Assembly (NCBI GenBank): GCA_016124805.1
Contig: WGND01000012.1
Coordinates: 1 to 64,000, forward strand
Direction: 5' to 3'
DNA length: 64,000 nt
DNA from: Hyphomicrobiales bacterium
GTDB lineage: Bacteria > Pseudomonadota > Alphaproteobacteria > Parvibaculales > Parvibaculaceae
Shown here: positions 37,777 to 48,163 of the stretch, one piece after another
How the letters are laid out: the number at the start of each line of letters is the position of its first letter
Numbering within the stretch: the stretch's first letter is position 1
Position numbers and translations under genes: made by a program
Notes under the pieces: model-generated
Seen by the model: only the letters and a program-made list of their open reading frames with translations
Told to the model about the DNA's origin: nothing
Database searches by the model: none

Positions 37777-38979
37777 TCAGAGCAGATCAAGCTGCCTGCC
37801 GGTACCGGGCACCAAAAAGGCGGAACAATCCAGCGGCCGACGTGTCGTGTTCAGGCCGAGCCTGCGGGTGGCGATTTCAAAGCGGCGCCCGATCTGCCAG
37901 GCATAGGGGCCCTTGCCACGCTGGCGATGCCCCCATTCGGCATCATAATCCTTGCCGCCATGCATGGCGCGGATCAGCGAAATCACATGGGCGGCCTTGT
38001 CGGGCACATTTTCTTCCAGCCAGTCGCGGAAGAGATCCTTGATCTCGATCGGCATGCGCAGAACCACAAAGCCCGCCGTGCCGGCACCGGCATAGCTGGC
38101 ACCGGCGAGAATTTTCTCGATCTCCATGTCGTTGAGCGCGGGAATGACAGGCGCCACCATGACACCGACAGGCACACCGGCATCCGACAGCAGCTTGATG
38201 GCTTCCATGCGTTTTGACGGCGTCGAAGCACGTGGCTCCATCGCGCGCGCAAGCCTGGCGTCAAGCGTCGTCACGGACATGGCGACCCGCACCAGATTGC
38301 GCCGCGCCATATCGGAAAGAATATCGAGGTCGCGCACAATGCGCGCCGATTTGGTGACAATGGTAACGGGATGGTTGAAGGCCGAGAGCACCTCAAGCAG
38401 GGACCTTGTGATGCGATAGCGCTGTTCGATCGGCTGATAGGGATCGGTGTTTGTCCCCATGGCAATGGGCGCAACCTCATATTTGGGGCGCGAGAGTTCG
38501 CGCGTCAGCAGCGCTGCCGCATTGGGCTTGGCAAAAAGCCGGGTCTCGAAATCAAGTCCCGGCGACAGCCCCATATAGGCGTGCGTAGGTCGGGCAAAAC
38601 AGTAAGAACAGCCATGCTCGCAGCCCCGATAGGCATTGATGGAACGGTCAAAGGGCATGTCGGGCGAGTCATTGCGGGTGATGATCTGCCGCGCCGTCTC
38701 ATCCGTCACCTCGGTCTTGAGGGCGGGCAGGCTGTCGAGGCTGTCCCAGCCATCATCGATGAATTCCCGGTCCAGCGGCTCAAAGCGGCCGCTCTGGTTT
38801 GTTAACGCGCCCCGGCCACGTCGGCCCTCTTTGGGCAGGCGCAGCTCTGAACGCCTCGGGGGTACGAGGGCGGACGGGTCCAGGAGCTGGTGGGGCCGAG
38901 CAGCCGCTGACATGACCGTCGGGGAACGGGTATCTGTCGCGGGGTGGCCGGAGCGCGTTATGGGCGTTGTCACTGTCAT
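37777..38979 (-). CDS. radical SAM protein, PA0069/SplB-like family
   Basis: [43 protein letters not shown]3CX2C radical SAM motif and family-typical flanks. Confidence 0.93.
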
Positions 38980-39002
38980 GCCGGAATTTTACCAAACAAT
39001 TA

Positions 39003-39017
39003 GAACAAAACAAGAAC
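39003..39017. promoter_or_regulatory. alphaproteobacterial LexA-box-type direct repeat
   Basis: GAAC-AAAACAA-GAAC (GTTC-TTGTTTT-GTTC on the minus strand), 24-38 nt upstream of the radical SAM ATG. Confidence 0.75.
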
Positions 39018-39067
39018 AATTTTATAGGCCGTTCCGAAAAGCGACAGGGCGCTGTATATAAATTGGC

Positions 39068-39763
39068 ATGTTGAGTGTGATCATCCCCACCTTGAACGCT
39101 GAAAAGAGCCTGGCAAAAGCAATGCTGCCACTGGTCACGGCGGCTGTGCGCGGTGTGGTGACGGAAGTCATCGTGGTCGACGGCGGCTCAAGCGATGCCA
39201 CGCTGGAGATTGTTGATTCGGCGGGCGCCAAGCTTGTGACGGCACCGCCCGGGCGTGGCAGCCAGCTGGCCGCCGGGGCGCGGGAAGCCAAGAGCGACTG
39301 GCTGCTTTTTCTCCATGCCGATACCGTTCTTGACGCGGGCTGGGATGACGAAATCAACAAGCTTTTCGAGCAGATCGAGTCAGGCCGTTTCCGCAACCGG
39401 GATATGGCGGCAGCCTTCCGTTTTGCGCTGGATGATTTTTCCAGTTCAGCCCGCTGGCTGGAGCGCATGGTGGCGCTGCGCTGCCTCGTCTTCCGCCTGC
39501 CTTATGGCGATCAGGGCCTGCTCATCAGCCGCCGTCTCTATGACAGGCTGGGCGGCTTCCGCGAATTACCCCTGATGGAGGATGTCGATCTCGTGCGCCG
39601 CATTGGCCGCAAGCAGCTCATCCTGCTGCGTACCGCTGCTGTCACCAGCCCGGAGCGCTATCTCCGCGATGGCTTCCTGTTGCGTGGTTTGCGCAATCTG
39701 GCCTGCCTCACCCTTTATTATCTCCGCGTGCCGCCGCGCGTCATCGCCCGCATCTATCAATAG
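39068..39763 (+). CDS. TIGR04283-type family 2 glycosyltransferase
   Basis: LSVIIPTLNAEKSL...VIVVDGGSSDATLEI...APPGRGSQLAAGAREA...LLFLHADTVL...YGDQGLLISRRLYDRLGGFRELPLMEDVDLVRRI. Confidence 0.93.
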   Translation: MLSVIIPTLNAEKSLAKAMLPLVTAAVRGVVTEVIVVDGGSSDATLEIVDSAGAKLVTAPPGRGSQLAAGAREAKSDWLLFLHADTVLDAGWDDEINKLFEQIESGRFRNRDMAAAFRFALDDFSSSARWLERMVALRCLVFRLPYGDQGLLISRRLYDRLGGFRELPLMEDVDLVRRIGRKQLILLRTAAVTSPERYLRDGFLLRGLRNLACLTLYYLRVPPRVIARIYQ

Positions 39764-39782
39764 ACAGATCGGTCAGCCCGCC

Positions 39783-40379
39783 GTGAGTGACCCCCAACTT
39801 GTCGTCATGTCCAAGGCCCCCTTGCTGGGGCAGGTCAAGACACGTCTGGCCAAAGGCATCGGCGCGGCGGAGGCAACACGCTTTTTTCGCACAACCAGCC
39901 AGACCATGCTGCGCCGGATGGCGCGCGATCCGCGCTGGCAATTGCTGCTGGCGCTCTCGCCCGACAGGGCCGTGCATGATCAGGGTATCTGGCCTGCGGG
40001 CATTCCCCGCATTGCGCAAGGGGGTGGCGATCTTGGTGCACGCATGGGCCGCCTCATGCGCGATCTGCCGCCCGGCCCCGTTGTCATGATCGGTGGCGAC
40101 ATTCCCGCCATCCAGCCCCATCACATCGCCTCGGCCTTCAAGGCGCTGGGGCGGGCAGATGTCGTTTTCGGTCCGGCAGAAGATGGCGGCTATTGGCTGG
40201 TGGGGCTCAAACGCCTGCCGCGCGTGCCCGATATTTTCGCGGATGTGCGTTGGTCAAGCCCGCATGCGCTGGCAGACACGCTGGCCAATGTGAAACGGGC
40301 AGGATTGCGCCATGAGATGCTGCAGACCCTCCCCGATATCGACACGGCAGAAGATTACTGGCGCTGGCGCAAGCCCTAG
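39783..40379 (+). CDS. TIGR04282/DUF2064 glycosyltransferase-like protein
   Basis: GTG start; [27 protein letters not shown]...[19 protein letters not shown]...[18 protein letters not shown]. Confidence 0.92.
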
Positions 40380-46231: not shown

Positions 46232-46408
46232 GACGGGTCACTCGGAACGCATTTGGATGTTGCGCGCTTTGGTGTTCGGCTAAGCTTGCCCTCCCGGACC
46301 GAGTCTCCGGGTGGCAGGCGACGACCGCTCGGGACCCGACATTCTGTCTCGATCCCTTGTGCGGCCCTTCAGGCAGCCGTCAGAAATGACGGCAAAGCGA
46401 GAGTTCAA

Positions 46409-48163
46409 ATGGCGTTCCTAGTTGATGCGTGCAGGCGTTTGGTGACGGTGAGTATGCTCGCTTTCGCCCTCGCGTCCCTTGCCGGTTGTGCCTCATTGCA
46501 GGACCTCGCAGGCGGCAGCCGTGAAACGCCATATGGCACCTATCTCTCCGCCCGCTTTGCGGCAGCCAATCATGAAACCGAAAAGGCCGCCGATCTTTTC
46601 GCCAAGGCCCTGCGCGACAATCCCGATGATCCCGACGTGCTCGATCGTGGTTTCATGCTTTATGCAACAGCGGGCGATCTTGATCGTGCCGCGCCGCTGG
46701 CCCGCCAGATCATCAAGGTAAAACCGGGCCATCGCCTGGCCCGTCTGGTGCTGGGCCTCGTGGCCATGAAAGATCGCGACTACAAGGAAGCCAAGTTCCA
46801 GTTCGCTTCCGCCGAACCCGGTCCCTTTACCGCCCTTGTCGGCGCATTGGCGGCTTCCTGGGCCGAAGCTGGCCTGAAGGACAAGGAAGCAGCCCTTCTT
46901 CGCCTCTCGACATTTGACGGCCGGGCCTCTTTTGATCTGTTCCGCTATTTCCATCAGGGCCTGATACTGGACCAGCTTGATGACGCCGCCGGCGCGGAAG
47001 CAGCCTATCGCAAGGCCAATGATGTCAGCACCGGCGCCAGCATCCGTGTCGTACAGGCCTATGCCTCCTTCCTGATCCGCCACGACCGCAAGGATGAGGC
47101 CCGCGAGTTGCTGACCCATTATCTCTCGCTGGCACCTGATCACCCGCTGGTCGGGGATGATCTCGAACGTCTGGATCGCAACAAGCGCTTCCGGCCATTG
47201 GTGACGACCCCCGCGCAGGGCGTGGCCGAAGTTCTCTATGGCCTGGGCAGTGCGCTGTCGCAAGACTCCAACAGCGAGATGTCGGCGCTCTATCTCAACA
47301 TGGCGCTCTATCTGCATCCTGATTTTGATGTCGCGCGGATGCTTCTCGCTGCGACCTATGAACAGGCCAAGCGCTATGATGAGTCGATCAGGCTCTATAA
47401 GGAAATCGGTTCCAGCTCGCCGCTTTATAAGACAGCGCGCATTCAGGCGGCAACCGATCTTGATCGCATCGGCAAACAGGATGAGGCCATCAAGGAGCTC
47501 TCCCGCCTGACGGGTGCCAATGCGACAGATGCCGAACCGGTCATCGCACTGGGCGACATTTATCGCAGCAAGGAAGACTTCGCCATGGCGGCGGAAACCT
47601 ATGGTCATGCGCTGGAAATTGTCGGTACGCCGACAGAGCGCGACTGGACGCTGCTTTATGCGCGCGGCATCTGTTTTGAGCGCATCGGCGAATGGAGCAA
47701 GGCCGAGGCCGATCTGAAAAAGGCGCTGACGCTTTCCAATGATCATCCGCTGGTGCTGAACTATCTTGGCTATTCATGGATTGAGCAGGGCATACATCTT
47801 GAAGAAGCTGTGAGCATGATCGAGCGGGCCGTGCAGCAGCGGCCGAATGACGGCTTCATCATTGATAGTCTCGGCTGGGCGCGGTTCCGCCTCGGTGATT
47901 ATGAACAGGCGGTCGAATATCTGGAGCGCGCCGTTGAGCTGGAGCCCGGTGACCCCACGATCAACGAGCATCTGGGGGATGCCTATTGGCATGTCGGCCG
48001 TCATCTGGAAGCCCGCTTTCAATGGACCCATGCGCTGGACATGAATCCGGAGGAAAAGCGCATTCCGGAATTGCGCAACAAGATGGATTTTGGCCTGAAG
48101 CCCGGCACCGATGAACCGGCAGGCAATGCGCATCGTGTCGCGCTGCCTGGAGGCGGTTCCTGA
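46409..48163 (+). CDS. TPR-repeat lipoprotein
   Basis: Signal/lipobox ASLAGCASL; multiple TPRs, LNYLGYSWIEQGIHLEEAVSMIERAVQQRPNDGFIIDSLGWARFRLGDYEQAVEYLERAVEL. Confidence 0.92.
   Translation: MAFLVDACRRLVTVSMLAFALASLAGCASLQDLAGGSRETPYGTYLSARFAAANHETEKAADLFAKALRDNPDDPDVLDRGFMLYATAGDLDRAAPLARQIIKVKPGHRLARLVLGLVAMKDRDYKEAKFQFASAEPGPFTALVGALAASWAEAGLKDKEAALLRLSTFDGRASFDLFRYFHQGLILDQLDDAAGAEAAYRKANDVSTGASIRVVQAYASFLIRHDRKDEARELLTHYLSLAPDHPLVGDDLERLDRNKRFRPLVTTPAQGVAEVLYGLGSALSQDSNSEMSALYLNMALYLHPDFDVARMLLAATYEQAKRYDESIRLYKEIGSSSPLYKTARIQAATDLDRIGKQDEAIKELSRLTGANATDAEPVIALGDIYRSKEDFAMAAETYGHALEIVGTPTERDWTLLYARGICFERIGEWSKAEADLKKALTLSNDHPLVLNYLGYSWIEQGIHLEEAVSMIERAVQQRPNDGFIIDSLGWARFRLGDYEQAVEYLERAVELEPGDPTINEHLGDAYWHVGRHLEARFQWTHALDMNPEEKRIPELRNKMDFGLKPGTDEPAGNAHRVALPGGGS

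Follow-up and report, generated by a model that had tools for sequence, protein, structure and literature searches.

The window analysed here, a stretch of 64,000 nucleotides, contains a direct repeat of the form GAAC-N7-GAAC at positions 39003-39017, in the intergenic region between a minus-strand radical SAM gene (37777-38979) and a plus-strand glycosyltransferase gene (39068-39763). The first-pass annotation read this repeat as a LexA operator placing an uncharacterised, SplB-related radical SAM enzyme under SOS control. The locus thus raises two questions, namely whether the repeat is a functional operator of the radical SAM gene, and what kind of enzyme such an operator would control.

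The repeat, the predicted promoter and the LexA boxes of the host genome

Direct reading of the DNA bears out the position and context of the repeat as originally described. On the plus strand positions 39003-39017 read GAACAAAACAAGAAC, and the operator on the minus strand, in the orientation of the radical SAM gene, reads GTTCTTGTTTTGTTC, with a TTGTTTT spacer that is A-rich on the plus strand. It lies 24-38 nt upstream of the ATG at 38979 and overlaps a predicted minus-strand promoter, whose -35 element TTGTTT (39013-39008) is situated within the operator and is followed after 16 nt by a -10 element TAAAAT (38991-38986), which in turn ends 6 nt before the ATG. A search of the intergenic region against Rfam gave no match.

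Taken as a bare pattern, GAAC-N7-GAAC shows no enrichment in either the window or the genome: the window contains two matches against 1.06 expected, and the 3.2-Mb genome contains 51, against 71 for the reversed control pattern. As these counts are close to chance, the repeat taken alone proves nothing and other evidence is needed. The second match in the window, GAACGCCATTTGAAC on the minus strand, spans 46403-46417 within a predicted reading frame; its spacer is GC-richer, it falls outside the 20 best-scoring sites, and it is probably a chance occurrence.

Kinship with related genomes assigns the window to Parvibaculaceae (Alphaproteobacteria), and the genome encodes the LexA repressor that SOS control would presuppose. 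The lexA gene (C19:85859) matches TIGR00498 with 167 bits, contains both the DNA-binding and the S24 peptidase domains, and is directly preceded by a box of its own, GAACCAAACTAGAAC. Other exact boxes are found before imuA, comM/yifB and dnaE, the last as a tandem pair, and in the divergent region between ssb and uvrA. A matrix was trained on six of these sites (lexA, imuA, comM, the two of dnaE, and ssb/uvrA), with the repeat at 39003-39017 held out; recA, whose sole exact match is low-scoring and GC-rich in the spacer, was left out of the training. In a genome-wide ranking that covered the 51 exact-pattern matches only, the held-out repeat scored 22.5 bits and ranked third of 51, ahead of the boxes of lexA and ssb/uvrA; the next site in the window scored 7 bits lower. 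The check proposed in the first-pass annotation, namely scoring the site against the SOS boxes of its own genome, hence returned a high score.

Certain other boxes in this genome deserve mention in their own right. The tandem LexA-like boxes upstream of the replicative polymerase gene dnaE (C19:110950-110990; L041) are 11 nt apart, and dnaE has been reported as an SOS gene of Caulobacter (PMC3323433). With rank 7 among the 51 matches, the high-scoring LexA-like box GAACATAAGAAGAAC (G000:C7:467149-467163; L015:1501-1515) precedes mraZ-mraW by about 213 nt; these genes head a division and cell-wall gene cluster, and the site raises the possibility of SOS control of division genes. A further site, GAACAAACAAAGAAC (G000:C12:220571-220585; L023), is located 75 nt before a gene for a C5-cytosine DNA methyltransferase.

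Conservation of the box in Alphaproteobacteria and across Pseudomonadota

The radical SAM gene is present in all 29 Parvibaculaceae genomes, in which the DNA upstream of it has diverged apart from a single island, aaTGTTCTTGTTnTGTTCt. In a wider set of 85 distinct alphaproteobacterial upstream regions of 600 nt, 77 contain an exact box; dinucleotide shuffles of the same regions yielded on average 1.9 and at most 6, and control stretches gave 2/85 and 0/82. The expected conservation upstream of orthologues is thereby observed. At three Ruegeria loci (L136, L139, L158) the box is reversed, in keeping with a repressor site able to act in both orientations.

The conservation extends to the arrangement of the promoter. 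Among 50 aligned promoters, 42 have a TAnnnT 16 or 17 nt downstream of the TTGTTN that forms the centre of the box, with other spacings accounting for 0-2 cases, and the start codon comes approximately 6-7 nt after the TAnnnT. In Parvibaculaceae and Hyphomicrobiales the distance from the start of the box to the start of the radical SAM gene is 38-40 nt and the -35/-10/ATG geometry is fixed. This geometry suggests that the operator contains the -35 element, and predicts an mRNA that is leaderless or nearly so. It is not a universal feature, as the box in Rhodobacterales is situated nearer to the start codon.

Beyond the alphaproteobacteria, we examined a phylum-wide sample of 299 Pseudomonadota genomes, related to each other, of which 144 contain the radical SAM gene above the family cut-off. 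GTTC-N7-GTTC or its complement is found in 74 of the 81 alphaproteobacterial upstream regions, most of the misses being boxes with one mismatch, and CTGT-N8-ACAG is found in none. The situation is reversed in the other classes, the labels of which rest on kinship and motif: here CTGT-N8-ACAG is present in 31 of 46 upstream regions and the alphaproteobacterial motif in none. Two upstream regions from these classes contain instead TTAG-N6-TACTA, a form known for the LexA of Xanthomonadales. No recognisable box was detected in the upstream regions of L250, L258 and about a dozen non-alphaproteobacterial orthologues. A LexA match was obtained in 275 of the 299 genomes, and one sampled genome (G142) has the gene but lacks both a LexA match and a box. 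Thus, the type of box upstream of the gene tracks the LexA type of the host across Pseudomonadota. A regulatory link that has outlived a change in the DNA code of its repressor constitutes strong evidence for function. The gene also co-occurs with the SOS polymerase DnaE2, in 88 of 95 alphaproteobacteria and 35 of 49 genomes elsewhere, with odds ratios of 33 and 14, respectively, which are uncorrected for relatedness or genome size.

These observations bear on two simpler accounts of the repeat. That it is a chance occurrence devoid of any regulatory role might be entertained from the unenriched counts of the bare pattern in the window and genome; its position, A-rich spacer and matrix score, and most of all its conservation, greatly exceed what chance would give, and together with the promoter geometry they leave this account a negligible probability, the conservation having refuted it for all practical purposes. 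Alternatively, the operator might chiefly serve the divergent glycosyltransferase gene of the TIGR04283 family, with control of the radical SAM gene being incidental, given that both genes share the same 88-nt intergenic region and the box lies 51 nt before the glycosyltransferase ATG. This is highly improbable: the box overlaps the -35 element of the radical SAM gene, retains its 38-40 nt distance from the start of that gene in Parvibaculaceae and Hyphomicrobiales, and remains with it across the phylum. In view of the maintained distance, the glycosyltransferase is probably not the target of the operator. This gene is the first of a divergently transcribed TIGR04283/TIGR04282 glycosyltransferase pair labelled 'arsenosugar biosynthesis' (39068-40379), and a TATATA shortly before its ATG possibly marks another near-leaderless promoter.

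Taken together, the presence of LexA in the genome, the matrix score, the boxes upstream of orthologues and the motif switch strongly support LexA control. Thus, judging from these sequence comparisons, the repeat is very probably a LexA operator that holds an SOS-inducible radical SAM gene off, in agreement with the regulatory part of the original proposal. LexA represses by covering promoters, and this repression is lost after RecA activation. At this locus, LexA dimers bound to GTTC-N7-GTTC would cover the -35 element of the only evident promoter of the gene; DNA damage would activate RecA and thereby trigger LexA self-cleavage, upon which RNA polymerase would gain the promoter and produce a near-leaderless mRNA for the radical SAM enzyme.

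Family, fold and probable role of the radical SAM protein

The gene encodes a protein of 400 residues, which scores 537.5 bits on the NCBIfam PA0069 family model (NF033668; cut-off 360) and 67 bits on the radical SAM domain PF04055, substantiating its earlier assignment to the PA0069-like group. The whole of the NF033668 model is matched, and the N-terminal 53 residues of the protein lie outside it. The previously noted CEHGCSYC is indeed present at residues 120-127 (codons at 38599-38622, minus strand), and forms the CX3CX2C motif for the [4Fe-4S] cluster and SAM, the three cysteines of which are the sole invariant cysteines among 34 aligned orthologues. PA0069 itself is a member of the LexA regulon of P. 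aeruginosa; our search for literature on the function of PA0069 or Rv2578c found no papers.

An AlphaFold model of the protein provides a usable barrel (pTM 0.71), with weak stretches at residues 1-75 and 120-146. In the PDB, the first six places among its fold matches are taken by spore photoproduct lyase (SPL) structures (E ~3e-7, TM 0.53 on the target, 15% identity), followed by NifB and RiPP maturases. Comparison with a viral fold library recovered distant radical SAM proteins and a single short fragment from a phage, annotated as DNA repair photolyase. A PDB sequence search with the family profile recovered no SPL match, the relationship emerging from the fold comparison alone.

The claimed relationship to SplB thus holds at the level of the fold, and does not extend to the family or its catalytic residue. 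The best fold match, SPL (PDB: 4FHC), shares with the window protein the radical SAM barrel and the CX3CX2C motif, but the window protein, at 15% identity, lacks a cysteine at the position of the hydrogen donor Cys140 and scores only 18.8 bits against the SPL family model (TIGR04070), far under its cut-off of 400. No SPL match above this cut-off was found in any of the 299 Pseudomonadota genomes, including the host. A profile comparison of the PA0069 family with two SPL-like proteins aligned the second half of the barrel only and fell short of the TDP motif; hence, the column corresponding to Cys140 was matched by means of this motif. In the SPL-like protein of L290, Cys176 aligns with Cys140 of 4FHC, whereas the matching position in the PA0069 family is Thr176, with threonine or alanine in 34 of 34 orthologues. 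The low SPL score, the lack of matches above the cut-off in the phylum sample and the threonine at the Cys140 position make known SPL chemistry unlikely, and the label 'SplB photolyase' is unsafe as a statement of function, given that the catalytic cysteine is absent. One genus of the phylum sample (g12; L290, L291) carries a real SPL-like gene, in which Cys140 falls within the motif FEASCYTDP, in addition to a PA0069-family gene, and so lends itself to a comparison of the two functions.

Three readings of the enzyme have to be weighed against this background. A true SplB under SOS control, reversing 5-thyminyl-5,6-dihydrothymine directly, is suggested by the six best fold matches, by the CX3CX2C motif and the tyrosine common to both proteins, and by the name splB given to the gene in an earlier study (PMC3323433); yet the SPL model score, the confinement of the profile comparison to the second half of the barrel, the phenylalanine that replaces the tyrosine after the cluster in 28 of 34 orthologues, and the invariable threonine or alanine at the Cys140 position, with no cysteine outside the cluster being invariant, render this improbable. 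An SOS-controlled enzyme with a substrate other than DNA, be it RNA, protein or a small molecule, is a possibility to which we attach appreciable, if minor, weight: many radical SAM enzymes function outside DNA repair, and NifB and the RiPP maturases are the next fold matches, but the best match is a DNA-repair enzyme, and the strict retention of the gene in LexA regulons and its co-occurrence with DnaE2 argue in the opposite direction. We favor a role in SOS-induced radical processing of a lesion, which is the likely function of the enzyme. It would bind SAM through its [4Fe-4S] cluster and most probably direct a 5'-deoxyadenosyl radical at damaged nucleic acid, by a chemistry other than that of classical SPL; that the substrate is specifically a DNA lesion has about even odds.

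Viewed more broadly, we tentatively suggest, at somewhat under an even chance, that Pseudomonadota have in the PA0069 family a core SOS enzyme, held by LexA through at least one change of motif, which repairs or processes a DNA lesion by a non-SPL radical reaction. If true, this would represent a direct-repair activity hitherto undescribed. To our knowledge, few SOS genes are held by LexA phylum-wide through a change of motif, and such genes are usually central ones, for instance recA, lexA and the mutagenic polymerases. A radical SAM enzyme in such company is a good target in the search for a new repair reaction.

Comparison with reported or predicted LexA-controlled radical SAM genes

The alphaproteobacterial LexA box has been described as GTTCN7GTTC in Caulobacter (PMC12700426), and its architecture is identical to that of the GAAC-N7-GAAC repeat, which was correctly recognized at the outset as being of this format. 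The form GTTCTTGTTATGTTC, found upstream of many Parvibaculaceae orthologues, is also the box of two early SOS genes in Caulobacter (PMC12700426), from which the box in the window differs by its TTGTTTT spacer.

A 2012 study of species with several chromosomes already predicted LexA boxes in front of 'splB' in alpha- and beta-proteobacteria; it took the gene to encode a photoreactivation enzyme, and did not see the trait in the gamma-proteobacteria it covered (PMC3323433). The gene kind, the alphaproteobacterial motif type and the proposal are the same as those considered here. Our analysis differs in placing the gene in the PA0069 family, with the catalytic cysteine missing, and in finding CTGT-N8-ACAG boxes widely in the non-alphaproteobacterial sample, which probably includes Pseudomonas. 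As the phylum sample has no SPL match above the cut-off, we infer that the alpha- and beta-proteobacterial genes of the earlier papers are likewise PA0069-family members. Elsewhere, a COG1533 SplB radical SAM gene has been reported as SOS-regulated in several species (PMC8565304), and a radical SAM gene is part of LexA regulons reconstructed in Gram-positive bacteria and Balneolaeota (PMC7739468). The Streptomyces venezuelae gene vnz_31145, which is bound by LexA in ChIP and induced by mitomycin C (PMC9380542), resembles the present case as a LexA-controlled radical SAM gene, but belongs to a different phylum with a different LexA motif. In light of these predictions and reports, the LexA link itself is not new; what is added here is the switch of motif across the phylum, the conservation of the promoter geometry and the absence of the catalytic cysteine.
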